A stretch of 64,000 bases of DNA from Bacteroidaceae bacterium. Lineage in GTDB: Bacteria > Bacteroidota > Bacteroidia > Bacteroidales > Bacteroidaceae. Below, one piece after another: positions 21,210 through 50,770 of this stretch. The stretch is taken from the NCBI GenBank assembly GCA_017427185.1, contig JAFRTJ010000056.1:1-64000 (forward strand), in the 5' to 3' direction. The notes below the pieces were generated by a model that worked only from the letters and a program-made list of their open reading frames with translations, had not been told where the DNA came from and made no database searches. Each line of letters begins with the position of its first letter. The stretch's first letter is position 1. Position numbers and translations under genes: made by a program.

Positions 21210-23972
21210 CTACTTGATCAGCACTTTCCTTGAGGTTCCATCAGAGTACCTCACGATTTGGATGCCTTTCTCGCCTTTCTTTGTCTGCTGACCGCTCAGA
21301 TTGTATCTGCCCAATTCAGTCTTAGCATTGCTGCGTGACACACCTTCCTGAATTCCTTCTATTCCGTCAGGCAGGTTTCCTGCATTCTTTTCCACCAGCA
21401 CTTTTGCCCATAATCCACCGATTACAGAACGGCCTCGGAAAGCTACTGCTGATGCATTTTCTGTCTGGTGCCAGTCACTTAGCGGCCATCGTGATGTGGT
21501 CTCGTTGGCGAATCTCCACTCAGTATCCATGATGGCGTTGAAGTCGGCCTCTTTAGTCGTCATAGCAGCCACCCAAGCGTTCCAGTCAGATTTGCAAGAG
21601 TTGTCGCGGCTGTCGAGAGGAAGTCCATATTTCTTTATCTTTTTCAGGTAAAAAGGAATTTCCACTCCCATCACGTCGCCGGTGTAGTCATCATTGAAGA
21701 TGTTCCATCCCCAAAGCTTATCCCAAAGCATGTTGTATTTCAGGCCCCAGTGAGTCGAATTCTGGAACTCCATGTAGTACCACGTTCCGTCCTTCGAGCG
21801 GTCCATATCCACCCAGTAGTGGGCATACTCTCGAGCGGTAGCCATATGTTTTTCGTAGAGGTCATCGTAACCCAGCATCTTGCACATCTCAGCGAAAGAG
21901 GCGATGCCCATGATGGCTTTCACTGCCAGGTTTGCATTGCGCTTGCTGGAGCCCTTGAAGTCATCTGTACAGAGCTGGTTGCCAGGTTCCTTGCCATTGT
22001 CAACGAGGAACTGATTCCACGAAGTCAGTACTTTCCAGTATTTCCTCAGGTAATCCAGATCGCCGTCCTTTTTGGCGATGTAGGCAGCCAGCGTGATGAT
22101 GTTGGCGCTTTCCTCCAATGGCATAGTGGATCCGTCGTTGGCTCGCGGGTTGCCATACACGTTTCCATTGGCGTGGGGATAGGTTCCCAAGTCGTGGGCG
22201 GCAAAGTTGTAGGGCCATCGTCCAGAGTAGCAGTAATCAAGGATACTGGTAATCATCGCCTTTTGAAGTGCTGGATTGTAGCTCAGGAAGAGTGGCGAGG
22301 AGGGATAGGTCAGGTCGACAGTATTCACGCAGCCGTTGGAATTGTTCTCTTTAGAGAAGTAGAGCAGGTTTCCGTCCCTATCCTGGAAGAGTTTGTGTGC
22401 AGCCAGCACATGCCGATAGGTGCCTGAAAGCAGTTCAGCATATTTCTTGCTGTGAGTGGCATTGTAGGCATCGTCATAAATCATCCTGTCCATATCGCGG
22501 CTGCGATTCATATAATAGGTATATTTGCTGTCCATCTCCTCGAAAGCCTCGTAGATGGTCTTCTTGTCGCGTGCCCAGTAGCCAGGATAGTTGACTCCAA
22601 AATACTTGATATCGTAGCGTTCGTCGTAGCCTACCATCAGGTAGCCAGATGCTTTCGTTCCTTTCCCCAAATCCTTGATGAAGGTTATCATGGGGTAAAG
22701 GGACGAGTTGGCAGAACGGTATACGGCTTCCTTGACTGTGGAAATCTTGCCGTCTGAGGCAAACTCTCTCTCCGCATCGTTGTAGTCAGCCACGCAGACA
22801 TCCCCACCATCCACGGCAGGGAGATAGATGTATCCCCAGTCGATGGTGATCATGTCACCAACGCGACTCAGGATGCTTTGAGCCTGGGTACCTGCATTCA
22901 CGTATTTTCTGCCATCCTTCTCATGCGTTCGATGAACAGTGGCTTGCGTACCGTTGTAGACGGTCATCTCGGAAGTGAATCCATAATAGAACTGCACGTC
23001 ATGCTCCTGGCCGTCATTCGAGGTCACGCGGTAGCTGATGTAGTTGATGGGAGTGGAGATGGACTCCAGGTCGTCGATGATCATGGGAGCTGTGAATACC
23101 ACGTCCAGATTGACAGGTCCACATCTGAAATTGTAGAAGGTATTGCAAGCCAACACGTCCACGTTTCGTTGGATGGCAATCTCCTGGTCAGGATTGTTCA
23201 CCTTCAGGTTCTCGTAGAGACCAAAGTCGCAATATGCGCCTCCCGTCTGGTTCTGGCAGCGGACAGCTATCACGTTGTCGCCCTCGTGGAGGTAAGCCAT
23301 TATCTCAGGTTTCAGTTTGAAGACCACATTGGGAGCCCAGTTGTAGCCGGAATTGATGACGAGTCTGCCATTGATGAAGAGATAGAAGTAATCATCGTGG
23401 GAATACTTCACATAGAGTTCCTTCTCGAGATCCTCGGCTTTCAGATTCACATGCCGGCGGACGTAGACACTCGTCCCTTCCTTATACCATTCTGTTCCCA
23501 CGTTGGTGTGCCAGTCATCCGGACAGTTGGTGCTTCCGTGATAGGGACAGCCGAAGGCTCCCCTCATGGTTTCCCATCCTGAGTCGTCGAAGTCCTCGCG
23601 TGCCCAAGTAATGCCTGTAGCAGGAGGCGTGGAACCTATGTATGCCTTTGCTGACCAGCCTCTGTCGGAGGTCATGGGAAGCAAAGCATTACCCAGAATG
23701 TAGGTCTGTTGTTGCCCCATCCATCGGTATACCTTACCATCTACGCGCAGCAAGCCATCCATCGGCTTCTTGATGTTCGACCAATGGCGAGTGGTGCCGT
23801 CAGTCAGTTTGTCGTAGGGTGACCAAAAAGAGATATAAGGGTCGTTCACGATGAGGGGTACGGCAGGAAGGCGCAGGTCGATGTTCTTGTAAGGTTCGAA
23901 AAAAGCGTCCTCCTGAGCGGATGCGGTCAAGGCAAGCATCAGGGATGCAACCACGGTGTAAAATCTATTCAT
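21210..23972 (-). CDS. Exported glutaminase-like protein (GtaA family) with jelly-roll insert and sorting tail
   Basis: A 920-residue protein with signal peptide (MNRFYTVVASLMLALTASA). The opening RLPAVPLIVNDPYISFWSP and HWSNIKKPMDGLLRVDGK are typical of the DUF4964/DUF5127/DUF4965/DUF1793 glutaminase-like family of Bacteroidetes and fungi. Residues about 115-255 form an insert resembling a galactose-binding jelly roll (WAREDFDDSGWE, YVRRHVNL, LFINGRLV, GDNVIAVRCQN). An all-helical catalytic-type domain follows (TYRHVLAAHKLF, FAAHDLGTYPHANG, MPLEESANIITLAAYI, STHWGLKYNMLWDKLWGWN). The last 40 residues (GRYNLSGQQTKKGEKG...RKVLIK) resemble a T9SS sorting signal. L-glutamine hydrolysis is shown only for fungal members, so the substrate here is uncertain. 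Confidence 0.82.
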   Translation of the reverse strand: MNRFYTVVASLMLALTASAQEDAFFEPYKNIDLRLPAVPLIVNDPYISFWSPYDKLTDGTTRHWSNIKKPMDGLLRVDGKVYRWMGQQQTYILGNALLPMTSDRGWSAKAYIGSTPPATGITWAREDFDDSGWETMRGAFGCPYHGSTNCPDDWHTNVGTEWYKEGTSVYVRRHVNLKAEDLEKELYVKYSHDDYFYLFINGRLVINSGYNWAPNVVFKLKPEIMAYLHEGDNVIAVRCQNQTGGAYCDFGLYENLKVNNPDQEIAIQRNVDVLACNTFYNFRCGPVNLDVVFTAPMIIDDLESISTPINYISYRVTSNDGQEHDVQFYYGFTSEMTVYNGTQATVHRTHEKDGRKYVNAGTQAQSILSRVGDMITIDWGYIYLPAVDGGDVCVADYNDAEREFASDGKISTVKEAVYRSANSSLYPMITFIKDLGKGTKASGYLMVGYDERYDIKYFGVNYPGYWARDKKTIYEAFEEMDSKYTYYMNRSRDMDRMIYDDAYNATHSKKYAELLSGTYRHVLAAHKLFQDRDGNLLYFSKENNSNGCVNTVDLTYPSSPLFLSYNPALQKAMITSILDYCYSGRWPYNFAAHDLGTYPHANGNVYGNPRANDGSTMPLEESANIITLAAYIAKKDGDLDYLRKYWKVLTSWNQFLVDNGKEPGNQLCTDDFKGSSKRNANLAVKAIMGIASFAEMCKMLGYDDLYEKHMATAREYAHYWVDMDRSKDGTWYYMEFQNSTHWGLKYNMLWDKLWGWNIFNDDYTGDVMGVEIPFYLKKIKKYGLPLDSRDNSCKSDWNAWVAAMTTKEADFNAIMDTEWRFANETTSRWPLSDWHQTENASAVAFRGRSVIGGLWAKVLVEKNAGNLPDGIEGIQEGVSRSNAKTELGRYNLSGQQTKKGEKGIQIVRYSDGTSRKVLIK

Positions 23973-24171: not shown

Positions 24172-24265
24172 CTCAACACGTTGATCTTGCCAACACGACA
24201 CGTTGTGTTTGAGGTATCAACGTGATGAATCTGAAGAGAGGAGTCTATGTATGTGCGTACCCTAA
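24172..24265. repeat. Intergenic near-palindrome array A (two full copies, one degenerate) with conserved flank
   Basis: Two ACACGTTG cores (24176-24183 and 24198-24205) have ACGT centres 22 bp apart; a degenerate third copy, CAACGTGA, is centred 20 bp further on (24218-24225). About 45 bp after the second core, 24245-24265 closely resembles the sequence after array B (37229-37247), sharing ATGTATGT and CCTAA. The array lies between the divergent glutaminase-like and M64 peptidase genes, about 150 bp upstream of the M64 promoter. It is non-coding on both strands as far as can be seen. The remainder of 23973-24406 holds the two divergent promoters and pyrimidine-rich sequence with no other feature seen. 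Confidence 0.75.
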
Positions 24266-24406: not shown

Positions 24407-25696
24407 ATGAGAAATATTCGTATCTTTTTTTCTGTGGCATCCATTCTGTTGGGCTTGGCAGTTCATGCTGATGGGTTCAGTGAGTTTTTTCAAGACAAAA
24501 CTCTACGTCTGGATTACACATTCAGTGGCAACAATCGGGAGCAGCGAATTTATTTGGATGAGATGAAGGTGTCAGATGGATGGTATGGGCGTCGCGTGAA
24601 TATGGATAGCCTGTTGCTGCAGGGTAATGGCCAGATAACTGTCACTGATACGCTGGGAGTGAAGGTGCTTTACCGCCATTCGTTCAGCACACTCTTTCAG
24701 GAATGGCAAACGACGGAGGAAGCTACCAGAGTGGAGAAGTCCTTCGAGAATATTTTCCTGGTGCCTATGCCTCTGATGCCTGTGGACGTGACCGTCACGC
24801 TGACGGACACTCATAACCAAGTGAAATCGACCCTAACGCATCGCGTGGACCCTAAGGACATCCTGATTCGTCCTATCGGAAGATTGGCTGCTAGTCCCTG
24901 GAAATATTTGGTAAAAAATGGTGACAGCAGGGAGAAGATAGACATAACCTTCGTTGCTGAAGGATACCAGTCGGTTGAGATGAATGTTTTCGAGAGGGAT
25001 TGTCGCGATGCGGTAGATGCAATCTTGTCGCACGAGCCCTTCAAGAGCATGAAAGAAAGGTTCAACTTTGTCGCCGTAATGTCGCCATCTGAGGAGAGTG
25101 GGGTGAGCATCCCTCATAAGGGAGAATGGAAGTCAACGGCTCTGGGCAGTAACTATGACACGTTCTACAGTGATCGCTATCTGACCACTCTGCATTTGAA
25201 GCAACTCCACGATGTGCTGGCTGGTGTTCCTTATGAGCATATTGTGATACTTGCCAATACGGAGAATTATGGAGGCGGAGGGATTTACAACAGTTACCTG
25301 ATGAGCGCAGCGCACAATGAGAAGACACGGCCTGTGGTGGTGCATGAGTTTGGTCATAGTTTCGCAGGTCTTGCTGATGAGTATTACTATGACGACCAAT
25401 ACGAGACTCAGTATCCAGCTGATACGGAACCTTGGGAACCCAATCTGACCACCTTGGTGGACTTCGACAGGAAATGGAAGGATATGCTGCCTCGAGGGAC
25501 GAAGATCCCCACAAAGCCTAGCAAGAAGAATCTTTATACAGAAGTAGGCGTTTACGAGGGTGGAGGATACCAGTCAAAGGGCGTGTACAGACCAGCGCAA
25601 GAATGCCGCATGAAAATCAATGAGGCTCCTGTGTTCTGCCCTGTCTGTGAAAGAGCTATCCGGCGTGTAATTAATTATTACACTTCAGGGGAGTAA
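24407..25696 (+). CDS. Exported zinc metallopeptidase, family M64 (IgA peptidase-like)
   Basis: A 429-residue protein with a signal peptide (MRNIRIFFSVASILLGLAVHA). The N-terminal beta-rich region (about 22-160) matches the M64 N-terminal domain (LRLDYTFSGN, RRVNMDSLLLQG). The catalytic domain follows, with KIDITFVAEGY and the extended zinc motif HEFGHSFAGLADEY near residues 312-325, giving two His ligands, a general-base Glu and a downstream acidic ligand. The founding member is the Clostridium ramosum IgA protease; for Bacteroidales homologues the substrate is not established. It is monocistronic, with its own promoter, and convergent with the small holin-like gene set. Confidence 0.88.
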   Translation: MRNIRIFFSVASILLGLAVHADGFSEFFQDKTLRLDYTFSGNNREQRIYLDEMKVSDGWYGRRVNMDSLLLQGNGQITVTDTLGVKVLYRHSFSTLFQEWQTTEEATRVEKSFENIFLVPMPLMPVDVTVTLTDTHNQVKSTLTHRVDPKDILIRPIGRLAASPWKYLVKNGDSREKIDITFVAEGYQSVEMNVFERDCRDAVDAILSHEPFKSMKERFNFVAVMSPSEESGVSIPHKGEWKSTALGSNYDTFYSDRYLTTLHLKQLHDVLAGVPYEHIVILANTENYGGGGIYNSYLMSAAHNEKTRPVVVHEFGHSFAGLADEYYYDDQYETQYPADTEPWEPNLTTLVDFDRKWKDMLPRGTKIPTKPSKKNLYTEVGVYEGGGYQSKGVYRPAQECRMKINEAPVFCPVCERAIRRVINYYTSGE

Positions 25697-34271: not shown

Positions 34272-36953
34272 ATGAAACTGCAATTTTCACTGGAATATCG
34301 GACTCAGTGGGGGCAATCTGTAGCTGTGGAACTCACTTTGTACCGTCATCAGGGAATTCGAGTGAATTCTCGGATATCTTTGGATACTTCGGATGGACTG
34401 CAATGGAGTGGAGATGTTCAGGTAATCGAGCGGGATGTTTCCTCGTTTGAGTATCGGTATGTGATTGTAGAGAATGACCAAATCGTGCGGCGTGAATGGA
34501 ATGCTGTGCCTCGTCGTTTCCCTGCGGATTCCACGCGTACATTTATATTTCCTGATTATTGGAGAGATATCCCTCAGTTGAATCACCTCTACAGTTCAGC
34601 ATACATTCATGCTGTTTCACATTTTGAGGCGAAGGATCCCAATTTCGTCTATTACGAGCAGACTTTGGTATTCCGTGTCCAGGCTCCTCAGTTGCACGAA
34701 GGGCAGGCGCTAGCACTCTTGGGCAGTCAGCCACCTTTAGGAGCATGGGACCCACTTCGTGCCTTGCGTATGGAGCGTGCTGGCATCAATGAGTGGGTTG
34801 TCAGTCTGAGTGCTGCCTATCTGTATCTGCCTTTTGAGTACAAATATGTCATTGTTGATGAAGCGACAGGCAATTTGATTCAATGGGAGGAAGGTGACAA
34901 TCGCTTGAGTCCCTCTGGTTCCATCCCTCAGAATCATGTAGTGGTTATCTATGACGAGATTGTCCATGTTGCTGATGAGCATTGGAAAGCCGCAGGTATC
35001 GTGATTCCCCTGTTCTCCCTTCGCAGTACGATGAGTCAGGGCATAGGTGATTTTGGGGATTTGAAGCGTATGGTCGATTGGGCAAACCTGGCAGGAATGA
35101 CTGTTATTCAGTTGCTTCCCATCAATGATACCACACAGACACATACATGGACTGACAGTTATCCCTACAACTGCATTTCCATTTATGCCCTCCATCCGAT
35201 GTATATCGATTTGCAGCAGCTGCCTCCTGTCAATGATGCAGCTTTCATGTTGGAATACGAAAAGAAACGTCGTGAGCTGAATGCCTTAAAGCAGGTTGAC
35301 TATGAGCAGGTGAATATATTGAAACAGGACTATCTGCAGCGTTTGTTTAAGCAGGAGGGCCAACGTGTTCTGAAATCTGCTGAGTATGAGGAGTTCTATC
35401 AGAAGAACCAGGAATGGCTTGTTCCCTATACGGCTTTCTGCATGCTGCGCGATAAATATGACACCAGTGACTTCCATAGATGGCCACACTTCAAGACCTA
35501 TAAAGCTGAGGACATCTATGCTTTGGTTGAAAAGAAAGTCAAGGGGACCAGTTTTTATGCTTTCCAGCAGTACATCTTGGACAAACAGCTGAGCGAAACT
35601 ACCGCTTATGCCCGTTCAAAGGGAGTTGTTCTTAAGGGGGATGTGCCTATCGGTATCAGTCGCTACAGTGTGGAAGCCTGGAAGGAACCTTTCTATTTCC
35701 ACATGAATGGCCAGGCAGGTGCGCCGCCCGATGATTTCAGCGTGAATGGCCAGAATTGGGGGTTCCCCACTTATGACTGGGACCGTATGGCTCAAGACGG
35801 TTATCGCTGGTGGATTCGTCGTTTCCGCAAGATGGCTGAGTATTTCGATGCTTTCCGTATCGATCATGTGCTTGGTTTCTTCCGCATTTGGGAGATTCCC
35901 TTGCACAGCGTCCATGGGTTGCTCGGACAGTTCTCACCAGCTCTGCCCATGAGTGCCGATGAGATAGAGGGCTTTGGACTACATTTCCAGAAAGAGCTCT
36001 TTACGCAACCTTATATAACTGATCAGGTGCTCAATTCCATCTTTGGAGGTATGGCCGATCATGTCCGTACTGCCTATCTGACCAAGATTGACGATACTCG
36101 TTATGCGATGCGACCCGAGTATGCAACTCAGCGACAGGTGGAGGCTGCTTTTCAAGACATGTCGGACGACTCGTCCCTTGCCCTGCGTGATGGGTTGTAC
36201 TCGCTGATAAGCGACGTTCTCTTTGTGCCCGACATCCACAATCCAGAGCTCTACCATCCACGTATCTCTGCCACAGAGGATCACATTTTCCGTAACCTTT
36301 CATGGCATGATCAGGAAGCATTCCGATGCCTCTATGAACACTACTTCTACCATCGGCACAATGATTTCTGGTACGATCAGGCAATGAAGAAGCTTCCATC
36401 GCTGGTTGAATCCACTCAGATGTTGGCCTGTGGTGAGGATTTGGGGATGGTTCCTGCATGCGTGGGCCCTGTGATGGAAAGACTGCGTATGCTCAGCCTC
36501 GAGATTCAGGCGATGCCCAAGAAGCCTGGGTTGCTCTTTGGTCACTTGGGGGACAACCCTTATCGCAGCGTGAGCACCATCTTTACTCACGATATGGTCA
36601 CCCTGCGTGCCTGGTGGGAGGAAGATTATGACAGGACGCAACGATACTATAATGAAATCCTGCATCACGATGGATCTGCGCCTCGCGTCATGCCTGGATG
36701 GCTGGCAGAGGAGGTTGTCTCGCGTCATCTCTATTGTCCCAGCATGTTGTGCCTGATCAGTTTCCAGGATTGGATTTCCATGGACGAGAAGTTGCGCTAT
36801 CCCTATCCTGATGATGAGCGCATCAATATCCCATCCATTCCTCGCCACCAGTGGCGTTATCGCATGCATCTCACAATCGAGGACCTGATGCAGGCTAGTG
36901 ATTTCAACAGTCATGTGCGCTTGCTCATCCAGCGTGGAGGACGTCTCAACTGA
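34272..36953 (+). CDS. malQ: 4-alpha-glucanotransferase (amylomaltase) with two N-terminal starch-binding domains
   Basis: An 893-residue GH77 enzyme. Residues about 1-105 and 122-230 are two CBM20-like starch-binding domains (the second with LGSQPPLGAWDP, LPFEYKYVIVD, WEEGDNR). The GH77 barrel follows (PLFSLRSTMSQGIGDFGDL, SYPYNCISIYALHP, FDAFRIDHVLGFFRIWEIP, CGEDLGMVPACV, THDMVTLRAWWEED); the catalytic Asp, Glu and Asp lie in RIDH, GEDLG and HDMVT. This is the long type related to plant DPE2, usual in Bacteroidetes. It moves maltosyl/glucosyl units between alpha-1,4-glucans in the cytoplasm, where no signal peptide is needed and none is seen. Monocistronic, ending in a clear terminator. Confidence 0.95.
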   Translation: MKLQFSLEYRTQWGQSVAVELTLYRHQGIRVNSRISLDTSDGLQWSGDVQVIERDVSSFEYRYVIVENDQIVRREWNAVPRRFPADSTRTFIFPDYWRDIPQLNHLYSSAYIHAVSHFEAKDPNFVYYEQTLVFRVQAPQLHEGQALALLGSQPPLGAWDPLRALRMERAGINEWVVSLSAAYLYLPFEYKYVIVDEATGNLIQWEEGDNRLSPSGSIPQNHVVVIYDEIVHVADEHWKAAGIVIPLFSLRSTMSQGIGDFGDLKRMVDWANLAGMTVIQLLPINDTTQTHTWTDSYPYNCISIYALHPMYIDLQQLPPVNDAAFMLEYEKKRRELNALKQVDYEQVNILKQDYLQRLFKQEGQRVLKSAEYEEFYQKNQEWLVPYTAFCMLRDKYDTSDFHRWPHFKTYKAEDIYALVEKKVKGTSFYAFQQYILDKQLSETTAYARSKGVVLKGDVPIGISRYSVEAWKEPFYFHMNGQAGAPPDDFSVNGQNWGFPTYDWDRMAQDGYRWWIRRFRKMAEYFDAFRIDHVLGFFRIWEIPLHSVHGLLGQFSPALPMSADEIEGFGLHFQKELFTQPYITDQVLNSIFGGMADHVRTAYLTKIDDTRYAMRPEYATQRQVEAAFQDMSDDSSLALRDGLYSLISDVLFVPDIHNPELYHPRISATEDHIFRNLSWHDQEAFRCLYEHYFYHRHNDFWYDQAMKKLPSLVESTQMLACGEDLGMVPACVGPVMERLRMLSLEIQAMPKKPGLLFGHLGDNPYRSVSTIFTHDMVTLRAWWEEDYDRTQRYYNEILHHDGSAPRVMPGWLAEEVVSRHLYCPSMLCLISFQDWISMDEKLRYPYPDDERINIPSIPRHQWRYRMHLTIEDLMQASDFNSHVRLLIQRGGRLN

Positions 36954-37114: not shown

Positions 37115-37247
37115 CGACACGTTGAAATCGTAAAGACAACACGTTGAGTTGCCCGAAACGACACGTTGATTTGGGGAACATAACACGTTGTGTCTGGATG
37201 TTTGACGTAGGTGTCAGAAGAGCATAATCCATGTATGTATATCCTAA
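37115..37247. repeat. Intergenic near-palindrome array B (four perfect-core copies plus one degenerate) with conserved flank
   Basis: ACACGTTG occurs at 37117-37124, 37139-37146, 37161-37168 and 37183-37190, each exactly 22 bp from the next; a degenerate GACGT copy is centred 20 bp further on (37204-37208). The 22-bp units share RACACGTTG and then diverge. 37229-37247 resembles the flank of array A. A TAATTTTG promoter-like box lies just before the array (37101-37108). The array lies between the ends of malQ and the 885-residue lipoprotein. The minus-strand frame across it reads every copy in a different phase, so the repetition is not at protein level. Elsewhere in 36957-37432 only the two terminators were seen. 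Confidence 0.85.
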
Positions 37248-37354: not shown

Positions 37355-37393
37355 TAAAAAGATACCCCAGCAAGATTCTTCTTGCTGGGGTAT
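37355..37393 (-). terminator. Terminator of the BACON-type lipoprotein gene
   Basis: A perfect 14-bp stem (37362-37375 with 37380-37393) has a four-base loop; on the minus strand it is followed by TTTTT (37360-37356). It lies 40 bases after the lipoprotein stop and is one of the strongest hairpins in the window. Confidence 0.88.
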
Positions 37394-37432
37394 GTGTTAT
37401 GGGGGTTAGGAGTTTTCTTTGTATTTCAGTGT

Positions 37433-40090
37433 TTAGTAAAAACGTCTGAAATAAATATCCATAATGACTTTATTGTTTGCGTTCTCCTCGTAAACATAAT
37501 TATTGCTGTGAGTATTCCCATTATCATAGATAGAGTACTCCTTAGCACTCCAACTGTTGAACACAATGCCATCACCAAGTTTTGCATTGACTACCATCTC
37601 ATACTTGTCAGCTTCGTTAACAGGTATGTTGGTTACATCAGCGTTGACTTCCCTCGTGACCTTACTCTTATCATAGTTTTCCTCTGAAATGTAATGCCAT
37701 TTCATGTTTATGATTTTGAGGTCGTCGCTCGAAAGGTCTTTGTAGTTCTGGATGTCAAACGATAGGGTTGCATCCTGTGTTTGCCATGAATACTCAATTT
37801 TTCCTATGCATTCAACATGCAGGTTGCGTCCCTGTTCAACGCAAGTTATTGTTGCGTTTTCCGTGTCTTCAAAGTCGAAGTTTGTGCCGTAGTCTACCTT
37901 ACTTCCTCTATCAACTTCTATGCCACTTGACCCCAAGTAGAAATTCACTTCGAAAATTGGGGATTTTTTCTCTCCCTTTTCCTGCTTTACCAGTACTGTG
38001 GTATAGACAACTTTTTCTTTGCCAGGTTTGACTCCGTTGTAGAACACATCATCGAGTGCCTGCTGGCTCACAGCTGCATAGAAGGTGATGGTGCCTGAGC
38101 GTTCTTCGTCTGTGTTGTTGGGGTTGACACTGATGACATAGCCGTCCAAGGTAGGCTGCACGTCTGCCCAGCCGATGATGTCGTCGCTCGGGTCGGCACC
38201 AAGATAGTTGTAGGATGAGGTGTAAGAAAGCGAGATAAGCTGTTCTCCCCCCTTTGCATCCATTATTACTTCTGAAGGATAGGCTGTGATAAATGGTTCA
38301 TTATCTTCGGGTATGTATGGCTTCTGCGTCACATCGAGCGTAATGGTCTTCAGCACCTTGCCTGCCTTATTGGTTGCCATCACAAGTACTTTTCCTGTGC
38401 GTTCCGCTGGCTTGCTGTTCTTGTCGTTGGGGTTCTGTGGTTTGTCATTCTTTGTCACTTTCACGTACATGTAGTTGGCATCGGTTGCTATGTTGGCTGA
38501 AATCCAGTCGCTCTCAGTCTTGCACTTGTAGTAGAGGTAATTGGTCACGATAGTGAAGCGCATCGACACTGCTTCGCCGCTCTCTTCTGTCCATTTCGCG
38601 CCAGGGTATAGACTCAGGTCTCCGTTTTCAGGCTCTTCTTCAAGCAGGTCTTCGTCGAATTCGAGGTCTGTCTCAATGATTGTCTCCTTGTCCTTGTTTA
38701 TGTCCACTTCCTTGGTGATTCGTTTGCCAGTATGACGGTTCACCACAGTGATGGTCTTTTTACCTGGGTTTTCTCCTGGGAACATCACTATGTTGCCTTC
38801 AGCGTCCTTCATGAATCCGAGGCGTATCCTGCCTGTCTCTTTGTCGACGAGATAGACGAAAGATATTTCCTGTCCGTTCACCTCCTTTACAATCACCTTG
38901 GTATCGAGTCCCAGCTTTTTACCATGATCATCGAACGCTTCCATCAGATTGTCGCTGAACATCGTTTCGTTGGCTGTGAAGTCGTATGCTCCCTTGAACA
39001 CGTTGTCTATCCACCAGTCCTTTCCTTCGTCCCAGTTCATATAGTATGCCGAATTAAAGCCCGACTCCACCTTGTCCATGAATTTCTCGTAGTCGCGGCC
39101 GTAGTTCACGACGTTGTGTCCCCACTGCTTTGCAAATTCCTTCAAAACATCGACGTTTACTCCATCGTAGGACACTGTGCCGTCCTCGTTCGCCTTAAAT
39201 TGAAACGTGTTGGTCAACACATTCATCGTTGCATTCGATGTGTTGTAGATGTCGATACCGGTGCTCAGGTTGATGGGGCAGGCATCTACAATGAGGTTCA
39301 TGCCAGCTTCTGCCATTTTTTGAGTGATGGTTGCCATGTTCATCTCTGGCGTGATGCCTATGTCACGACATGTGTCGTAGAACTCCTGCACGTCTGGGTC
39401 ATCGCTCGTAGAGTAGAGGTTCTTGAAAATCTGGTTAGAGCGGTCGTCCAGTTTGCCTGTGCTGAAATCCTTCCAGAAAGAAAGAGCATTGCTGTAGCCA
39501 CGACGGTTTCCTTCTGGAATCTGCTTGTACAGTTTCTCCATCATTTGATAGTTAGTCGACCATCCCTTTGCCCTGATAATCGTCATAACGGCCTGACGTC
39601 CCATCGCAGCTGACGACTTTGCAGCTATGCCGAAACTAAAGAAGTCGCTCAGAAAGCCACGGGTGACAGCCCCTTCGGGTAGAATGCCGTTCACTTCCAT
39701 GTTCTCGAGTGCTTCAGTGTAGGTGTCAAGGTTGTTGTAGAGGTAGGTCAGCATCTCCAAATACTCGTCCGCCAGTTTGGGCTGGTTCTTGCCAAGCTCT
39801 TCAGGCGAAACCGTGAAGAAGTCCTCCGGTCTTTTCAGTCCGTCGGATGCCATCATCCAGTAGTTCCAGTTCATTGCCTTCATCACGAAAGCCAGCTGAT
39901 TCACAGCGTCCATGTCACTCTTGAACTGTGAACTCTTCTCATAGTGCATCGCCTTCTGCGGGTTCTCTACATATTCGGGCATCTCAATATCGGGTTCTTC
40001 GACAAGGTCGTCCGAACCACTGCAGCCCATTAAAGCAGCGCATGTCAATACCATTGACAGCGCAAGCCAATACATGCATTTTGCCTTCAT
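37433..40090 (-). CDS. Large surface lipoprotein with BACON-like domains, function unknown
   Basis: An 885-residue protein with a lipobox (ALMGCSGSDD; the acidic residues after Cys suit outer-membrane or surface export in Bacteroidetes). Residues about 40-300 are alpha-helical (QLAFVMKAMNWNYWMM, LADEYLEMLTYLYNNL) and resemble no family I recognise. About 490-590 and 597-705 are two beta-sandwich segments like BACON domains (SDWISANIATDANYMYVKV, FITAYPSEVIMDAKGGEQLISLSY in part), domains usually found in carbohydrate- or mucin-binding lipoproteins. The C-terminus is also beta-rich. It is transcribed alone, convergent with malQ across repeat array B. A surface-binding role is inference; the helical part could be an enzyme of unknown type. 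Confidence 0.78.
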   Translation of the reverse strand: MKAKCMYWLALSMVLTCAALMGCSGSDDLVEEPDIEMPEYVENPQKAMHYEKSSQFKSDMDAVNQLAFVMKAMNWNYWMMASDGLKRPEDFFTVSPEELGKNQPKLADEYLEMLTYLYNNLDTYTEALENMEVNGILPEGAVTRGFLSDFFSFGIAAKSSAAMGRQAVMTIIRAKGWSTNYQMMEKLYKQIPEGNRRGYSNALSFWKDFSTGKLDDRSNQIFKNLYSTSDDPDVQEFYDTCRDIGITPEMNMATITQKMAEAGMNLIVDACPINLSTGIDIYNTSNATMNVLTNTFQFKANEDGTVSYDGVNVDVLKEFAKQWGHNVVNYGRDYEKFMDKVESGFNSAYYMNWDEGKDWWIDNVFKGAYDFTANETMFSDNLMEAFDDHGKKLGLDTKVIVKEVNGQEISFVYLVDKETGRIRLGFMKDAEGNIVMFPGENPGKKTITVVNRHTGKRITKEVDINKDKETIIETDLEFDEDLLEEEPENGDLSLYPGAKWTEESGEAVSMRFTIVTNYLYYKCKTESDWISANIATDANYMYVKVTKNDKPQNPNDKNSKPAERTGKVLVMATNKAGKVLKTITLDVTQKPYIPEDNEPFITAYPSEVIMDAKGGEQLISLSYTSSYNYLGADPSDDIIGWADVQPTLDGYVISVNPNNTDEERSGTITFYAAVSQQALDDVFYNGVKPGKEKVVYTTVLVKQEKGEKKSPIFEVNFYLGSSGIEVDRGSKVDYGTNFDFEDTENATITCVEQGRNLHVECIGKIEYSWQTQDATLSFDIQNYKDLSSDDLKIINMKWHYISEENYDKSKVTREVNADVTNIPVNEADKYEMVVNAKLGDGIVFNSWSAKEYSIYDNGNTHSNNYVYEENANNKVIMDIYFRRFY

Positions 40091-49641: not shown

Positions 49642-50595
49642 ATGAACAGACGAACTTTCCTTGGCGGCTTGGCCGCTATCGGCCTGCAAGGTTCTATGCT
49701 GAACGTCAGCGCCTCTCCTTTGGCCCGCATGATGAGTCCTAAGAGAAAGAAGAAGGTATCTGGCCGTTTCGACGAAGATACGGTCATTCTTATCAGCGAC
49801 ATGCATGTCCTGCCCAATGGGCACACGCCAGGCTATCTGACACGTGTGGTGAACGAGATTCTTGCTATGAGTCCCTTGCCGCGCAACGTCATTGGTTTGG
49901 GCGATTTGGCCAACCTTTATGGACACGTAGAGGACTACGAGTGCGCACGCCAGTTATTTGCTCCTTTAGAGGAGGCTGGCATCAACCTCACGCTGGGGAT
50001 GGGCAATCATGACCGCAGAGAGAACTTCGCCCGTGTGTTCCCTGAGAAGGCTGTAACCACACGTCTCTTCGATCGGATGGTTTTCATTGTCAAGACCCCT
50101 CGCGCTGACTTCATCGTGCTCGACTCCCTTCAGGAATCGCCCGACCTTGGGAAGTGGATAACCCCAGGTGCCATCAGTCAGGAGCAGATGGATTGGTTGC
50201 GCGATACCCTGCGCGGCTATCAGAAGCCTGTCTTCGTTGCCGCCCATCACTCTCTCGATGAGACCAAGGTGTTGCCCCTGCTGCGCGACTGTCCTTCCTG
50301 TTGTGGCTATCTCTTCGGACACGAACACCGTTGGCGTACTGACAGCCCCGTCTTCCAATGGGGTAAGCGTGGCATCCTGCGCACCATGTGCCTGCCTTCT
50401 ACAGGTTATTGGGGTGATATAGGTTACGTCCAACTTCATCTTGACGAGGATCGTGCGGTTGCCACTCTGCATCAGAGCGAGTACTTCTTCAACTATCCCC
50501 TGAAAGAGGGCGAGGAGAGACCTCTTCAATGGGCACTTAACGCACAGGACAACGATGGTTCTCATTGCTCATTCTCCTATCAGCGGCCAGGATAA
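49642..50595 (+). CDS. Tat-exported calcineurin-like phosphoesterase
   Basis: A 317-residue protein with a twin-arginine signal (MNRRTFLGGLAAIGL). Metal-binding motifs of the calcineurin-like family are all present: LISDMHV, GLGDLANLYG, GNHDRR, AAHHSLDE and GHEHRWR. These enzymes hydrolyse phosphomonoesters or diesters with a two-metal centre. It lies 120 bases after the TIM-barrel gene; the spacer contains a nine-base inverted repeat (TTCCTTTCC at 49534-49542 with GGAAAGGAA near 49586) but no terminator, so cotranscription is likely. The substrate is unknown. Confidence 0.88.
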   Translation: MNRRTFLGGLAAIGLQGSMLNVSASPLARMMSPKRKKKVSGRFDEDTVILISDMHVLPNGHTPGYLTRVVNEILAMSPLPRNVIGLGDLANLYGHVEDYECARQLFAPLEEAGINLTLGMGNHDRRENFARVFPEKAVTTRLFDRMVFIVKTPRADFIVLDSLQESPDLGKWITPGAISQEQMDWLRDTLRGYQKPVFVAAHHSLDETKVLPLLRDCPSCCGYLFGHEHRWRTDSPVFQWGKRGILRTMCLPSTGYWGDIGYVQLHLDEDRAVATLHQSEYFFNYPLKEGEERPLQWALNAQDNDGSHCSFSYQRPG

Positions 50596-50690: not shown

Positions 50691-50770
50691 AGAGAACGTG
50701 TTGACTCGGTAATTTCAACGTGTTGAGTCTAGACTTTCAACGTGTTGATTTCCTCTTTCTGACACGTTGC
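50691..50770. repeat. Intergenic near-palindrome array C (four copies)
   Basis: Cores AACGTGTTGA (50695-50704), CAACGTGTTGA (50716-50726) and CAACGTGTTGA (50738-50748) have ACGT centres exactly 22 bp apart; a fourth, ACACGTTG (50762-50769), is centred 24 bp on, and reads in the opposite orientation. The first three are reversed relative to arrays A and B. The array lies about 130 bp upstream of the promoter of the YjbQ-family gene and 95 bp after the phosphoesterase stop. The A/B flank (ATGTATGT...CCTAA) is not present. Nothing else was seen in 50596-50898. Confidence 0.8.

Follow-up and report, generated by a model that had tools for sequence, protein, structure and literature searches.

The genome examined here (G000) carries dispersed arrays in which a 10-bp site, CAAC(AC|GT)GTTG, alternates with a variable 12-bp spacer at an exact 22-bp pitch. 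The sites are constrained in sequence, the arrays lie mostly behind genes and at even chromosomal intervals, and other members of the genus keep the same geometry with species-specific sites. From this pattern we infer that the arrays are cooperative binding-site clusters of a sequence-specific, chromosome-organizing protein, a reading to which we give slightly less than an even chance.

Array geometry in the window and across the genome

The window, meaning the whole stretch of 64,000 nucleotides that was analyzed, belongs to contig C17 of G000, a 3.58-Mb, 97% complete assembly, and holds three arrays about 13 kb from each other. Array A (24174-24227, plus strand) consists of three sites at a pitch of 22 bp: CAACACGTTG at 24174-24183 and CGACACGTTG at 24196-24205, both on the plus strand, followed by CAACGTGATG at 24218-24227, which is inverted and has one mismatch. 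It is adjoined by two divergent genes, encoding a glutaminase A-like protein with GtaA_6_Hairpin, DUF5127 and DUF4964 (21210-23972, minus strand) and a protein of the M64 peptidase family (24407-25696, plus strand). Array B (37115-37190, plus strand) has four sites with the same pitch, at 37115, 37137, 37159 and 37181, and lies between convergent genes. One of these encodes a 4-alpha-glucanotransferase of family GH77 with CBM20 (34272-36953, plus strand), whose stop codon is 161 bp before B, and the other a BACON-domain protein (37433-40090, minus strand). The sequence ACACGTTGTGT is common to A (24198) and B (37183). Array C (50694-50769, minus strand) adjoins a metallophosphoesterase gene (49642-50595, plus strand) whose stop codon is 98 bp before it. 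Its sites at 50694, 50716 and 50738 are of the CAACACGTTG type on the minus strand, and a degenerate site, TGACACGTTG, stands on the plus strand at 50760.

A first-pass annotation of the window had described A and B, and both were re-found at their site coordinates, with neighboring gene calls that confirm the divergent setting of A and the convergent setting of B. Array C was missing from that account, and the "degenerate fifth copy" it proposed for B (37203, TGACGTAGGT) is not credible as a site. Between the convergent genes around B, positions 37364-37396 form a near-perfect inverted repeat, ACCCCAGCAAGA..TCTTGCTGGGGT, that looks like a bidirectional intrinsic terminator; with this repeat beside it, array B is probably not the terminator at that spot.

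Genome-scale statistics were drawn from 1.09 Mb, or about 30% of G000; this and the other assemblies are metagenomic. The sample contains 63 arrays with two to nine sites each, in both orientations, and extrapolation gives a whole-genome total of about 200. Distances between sites are 22 bp (165 cases), 44 bp (106), 66 bp (52) and onward, other values being essentially absent, and a relaxed scan returned 67 array clusters at a pitch of 22 and none at 17, 19, 20, 23 or 25. Two ACACGTTG cores in the same orientation, one repeat apart, occur 234 times genome-wide, compared with zero occurrences of the reversed control pattern.

Within the 10-bp site, constraint extends to the center. Sites with exact arms have AC or GT there 178 times in the 1.09 Mb, AT never and GC twice, which means that the perfect palindromes are nearly absent, and positions 3-8 (ACACGT) are almost invariant. 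The 12-bp spacer holds a weak dyad of its own, WNWYNGCNRWNW, so that, together with the dyad of the site, dyads alternate every 11 bp. Neighboring sites are co-oriented in 120 of 165 pairs. A de novo search for other motif families in G000 gave only CAACACGTTG. The array at C68:110046-110231 has nine sites, seven adjacent copies of which are an asymmetric variant, CAACACGTTC, likely a recent local expansion.

CRISPR arrays are made of identical repeats of 24-48 bp separated by unrelated, foreign-derived spacers. That identity was ruled out here, since the site is 10 bp long and the spacers conform to one consensus and are found again at other loci.

The first-pass annotation had further proposed that A and B are copies of a roughly 100-bp element that has its own flanks, pointing to a match between their downstream flanks (24230-24265 and 37212-37247, plus strand) that reads GAAGAG...TCYATGTATGT...CCTAA. 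We judge this match to be a chance one. Formal alignment of the two flanks gives a score of 21, with p 0.009-0.02 against shuffles of that pair, but among 7812 pairings of flanks from unrelated arrays 2.8% reach such a score. A search of the genome for a third copy of the TCYATGTATGT...CCTAA block found none, and the A/B pair is absent from the matches obtained when the flanks of the 63 arrays (300 bp) were compared all against all. The latter comparison, which the annotation had suggested as a way to define the ends of the element, gave no common flank, and most arrays have nothing in common outside their sites. Flank comparison and genome search thus rule out a shared-flank element; the flank has no further copies and a similarity at the level of chance, an outcome that the annotation had itself named as counting against its proposal.

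The all-against-all comparison did return a few pairs with long common flanks, which arose through block duplication. Three arrays of G000 (C38:56843, C36:83999 and C38:75437) have about 100 bp of flank in common, including GAACTGGTGGAYAGTYTC, which suggests that the array was duplicated as a block together with its surroundings. Related words of the form GAACTGGTKG are found near other arrays, among them array C (50782). Separately, several arrays of G000 (at C36:36624, C77:101982, C4:30631 and C28:18050) are adjoined by a MITE-like element, TGAACTCAAAAGT...ACTTTTGAGTTCA, which is about 170 bp long, contains internal CCTACACYCTACACC repeats and sometimes lies inside a block that is common over 234 bp.

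Chromosomal placement, conservation and turnover

According to gene calls that are approximate, being produced by our own codon-usage script, 58 arrays are intergenic. A stop codon is the nearest gene boundary for 74% of arrays, as against 47.5% (sd 5.8) at random intergenic positions. Where the neighboring genes are in tandem, the upstream stop is the closer boundary in 24 of 30 cases; its median distance is 124 bp, compared with 344 bp for the downstream start. Fifteen arrays lie between convergent genes.

The arrays are also more evenly spaced than expected. Gaps between them in G000 average 15.3 kb with a coefficient of variation (CV) of 0.55, whereas random placement yields 0.86-0.90 and placement within 3'-end intergenic intervals only yields 0.83-0.88 (P at most 0.0002). 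This evenness survives length-, count- and 3'-end-restricted nulls, and the null confined to 3'-end intergenic intervals rules out an artefact of gene layout. Three gaps are shorter than 5 kb, where 12-14 would be expected, a deficit which indicates that arrays repel each other on the chromosome.

Comparison with related genomes, whose coding regions are about 80-85% identical to those of G000, separates the parts of the array. In orthologous arrays the arms are 95% (gapped) or 94% (ungapped register) identical, the spacers 69% or 55% by the same two measures, and the flanks 78%; the alignment program puts gaps into some diverged spacers. Arrays aligned in register keep their 22-bp site steps, and the flanks are rich in indels. 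Orthologous sites agree in their center in 20 cases; in six the center has flipped between AC and GT, and in two it has changed in another way. The flips indicate that orientation is free and that the asymmetric center is retained.

Individual arrays turn over. Three of 15 have no counterpart at the orthologous position of a related species, although one of them (L157), when its alignment is read by eye, is better called a degenerate array. In distant species, a tblastx search with the flanks recovered few array-to-array correspondences, which shows that array placement turns over and rules out conservation of the arrays across such distances. Given the losses among related species and the rarity of correspondence among distant ones, no single array seems essential. 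We also observed that 8 kb of G009 (L195) is 98.65% identical to G000:C77:65180-73179, which suggests either a recent exchange or contamination of one of the two assemblies.

Site dialects across the genus

In samples from three further species, self-matches are most frequent at a distance of 22 bp. Array-like clusters at 22 bp are conspicuous in most of the nine other members of the genus that were sampled, but not in genomes of other families. The signal is weak in G128, G082 and G062, from each of which 50-80 kb were sampled. Most named records that carry the paired sites of G000 are assemblies of Bacteroidaceae and Prevotellaceae from the rumen; two of them match, by position, the related genomes G073 (JAFZWK, RGIG8159) and G009 (CAMKMK).

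The sites themselves differ between species. In G133 and G053 they read CAACCGGTTG, and G114 holds 368 pairs of CCGC(AC|GT)GCGG, a pairing found zero times in 12 other genus members; about 190 other family genomes together yielded a single stray example. Arrays of TAAC(AC|GT)GTTA and of ATACATGTAT are additionally present in G114, where two motif families adjoin at L132:10086-10229 (contig C2), ATACATGTAT being followed by TTAACGTGTTAA-like sites. In different species or families, then, the AC|GT center is flanked by the arms CAAC, CCGC or TAAC. The spacer dyad of G114 reads WYNGCNRW, as in G000, and with spacer core and center in common only the arms have been replaced.

Placement in G114 follows the pattern of G000. 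With all families pooled, the mean gap between arrays is 7.5 kb (CV 0.45 vs 0.75, P<0.00025), and a stop codon is the nearest boundary for 78% vs 46%. G126 has nine arrays, too few to show even spacing. A phage origin was ruled out, with no CAACACGTTG pair and only two CCGCGTGCGG pairs among 2.9 million viral contigs. In the open papers searched, such arrays are undescribed.

Possible readings and known systems

A two-turn pitch, two dyads per repeat, free orientation and kept arms correspond to the needs of a cooperative dimeric DNA-binding protein. A putative protein, probably dimeric, would assemble cooperatively along one face of the DNA, with 22 bp amounting to about two helical turns and each repeat presenting two dyads 11 bp apart. 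Arrays bound in this way may punctuate the chromosome every 7-15 kb or so, for example as bends, bridges or supercoil barriers that follow transcription units. Even spacing behind genes, combined with the mixed functions of the neighbors, agrees better with a role in chromosome architecture or supercoiling than with a regulon. Each species would retain its own site dialect as the recognition surface of the protein co-evolves with the sites.

More tentatively, and as a possibility that we rate at about one in three, the arrays may belong to a genus-wide system new to description. In such a system one or more fast-evolving DNA-binding proteins would coat the 22-bp-phased arrays, which follow genes at more or less regular distances, as helical filaments, and the recognition surface and hundreds of sites would switch dialect together with the lattice geometry fixed; several such proteins might be present in one cell. 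A second protein of the ParB/Noc type is an improbable reader. ParB_N detected one conserved chromosomal ParB, single-copy in 9 of 9 genomes tested, and no additional paralogue of the Noc kind.

If the arrays do organize the chromosome, they would constitute domain-like marks in bacteria that are evenly spaced, helically phased and readable from sequence. Because hundreds of sites change from one species to the next with geometry unchanged, the co-evolution of a global DNA-binding protein and its sites is directly testable. The arrays also provide a sequence signature to seek in abundant, largely uncultured rumen bacteria.

The strongest rival, which we consider unlikely, is a selfish or mobile MITE-like minisatellite, in which a putative enzyme would copy the arrays to new places, slippage would make them grow, and target immunity or the purging of close copies would keep them at a distance, so that even spacing could instead come from insertion interference. 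Gain and loss of arrays between related species agree with this, as do the co-orientation of adjacent sites, as from tandem duplication, and the few arrays with long common flanks in block duplications; moreover, tandem repeats of 23 nt are found in the BrickBuilt MITEs of Porphyromonas gingivalis, which likewise belongs to the Bacteroidales (PMC4596501). However, three presence/absence alignments contain no target duplication or clean boundaries, and no terminal inverted repeats or defined ends were seen in the few such alignments examined. The Y1 transposase family (PF01797) has no match in G000, G009, G073 or G114, and elsewhere its matches are weak or unrelated; this absence from the four genomes also rules out a REP/RAYT system. 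Furthermore, arms are kept and spacers decayed, whereas decaying copies would differ, and an extra assumption is needed for the even spacing and the stop-codon bias.

The first-pass annotation had itself favored a minisatellite-like dispersed element. Dispersal and variable site number stand, with two to nine sites per array in the 1.09 Mb and three of 15 arrays absent at the orthologous place. Even chromosomal spacing, stop-codon bias and species-specific sites at a constant 22-bp pitch point to selected binding sites rather than to plain slipping.

It is improbable that the arrays act as DNA-uptake or self-recognition sequences in the manner of the Neisseriaceae DUS and the Pasteurellaceae USS. 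DUS dialects have been described (PMC3630211) and are often terminator-associated, and uptake sequences resemble the arrays in their dialects with a retained core, in reported even spacing and, for certain species, in an association with the ends of genes (PMC3630211, PMC1939737, the spacing being cited in the latter). Species dialects on a common core are indeed what we find in the genus, and a ComEC-like channel is encoded in four of five genus genomes tested. Uptake sequences, however, are single, non-palindromic words, often intragenic and without phased arrays, whereas the sites described here are palindromic, phased, grouped in numbers and almost only intergenic, and G126 (94% complete) has arrays without a ComEC match. 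To our knowledge, no uptake sequence is known in Bacteroidota.

RNA-level 3' elements, serving as stem-loop terminators, mRNA-end stabilizers or attenuators, have a similarly small chance of being the explanation. The arrays are located behind stop codons and fold better as RNA than shuffles do (median z -2.25), a value that the palindromic arms alone would also yield. Against this, the strand of the array relative to the upstream gene shows no bias (93 vs 110, p=0.26), site orientation flips between orthologues, mostly co-oriented neighbors would produce mismatched stems, and stems need neither an exact 22-nt pitch nor even chromosomal spacing.

Less probable still are operators of one transcription regulator at about 200 promoters: phased tandem palindromic sites are typical of operators, array A lies between divergent genes and one array is 6 bp ahead of a start codon (C68:210007), but most arrays are nearest a stop codon or lie between convergent genes, even spacing is not expected of a regulon, and the genes that begin close to an array, on inspection of their sequences, mix housekeeping and surface functions with no obvious regulon, which speaks against a promoter regulon and agrees with the first-pass view that a simple promoter operator cannot explain the arrays.

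Among known systems, the REP/BIME sequences of enterobacteria and pseudomonads, with their RAYT transposases (PMC2817692, PMC3733652), are likewise dispersed extragenic palindromes with more than 100 copies per genome, arranged in mixed-orientation groups and with class sequences differing between species. The arrays resemble them in being extragenic, of high copy number (63 arrays in 1.09 Mb) and enriched behind genes (74% nearest a stop codon). In contrast, the REP unit is a stem-loop of 20-40 nt whose terminal tetranucleotide, GTAG or CGTC, is conserved, whereas the unit here is a palindrome of 10 bp, asymmetric in its two central bases, and has no such stem-loop or tag, and the arrays have an exact 22-bp pitch and even chromosomal spacing.

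BrickBuilt of P. gingivalis is alike in belonging to the Bacteroidales and in consisting of dispersed, variable-number tandem repeats whose period (23 nt) almost equals that of the arrays; it is a MITE with a leader, a tail and ISPg-like terminal inverted repeats, present in about 19 copies per genome (PMC4596501). In the arrays, about 200 in number, the short sites alone repeat, the spacers have diverged and common ends are absent, the all-against-all comparison of flanks having revealed no shared leader or tail and no terminal inverted repeats.

The parS/ParB, NBS/Noc and matS/MatP systems combine palindromic dispersed sites with a dimeric reader protein and an organizing role, and their sites are single, domain-restricted and conserved over wide taxonomic ranges. 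The arrays are like them in having palindromic dispersed sites and differ from them in being helix-phased, in occurring throughout the contigs sampled and in having a sequence specific to each species.
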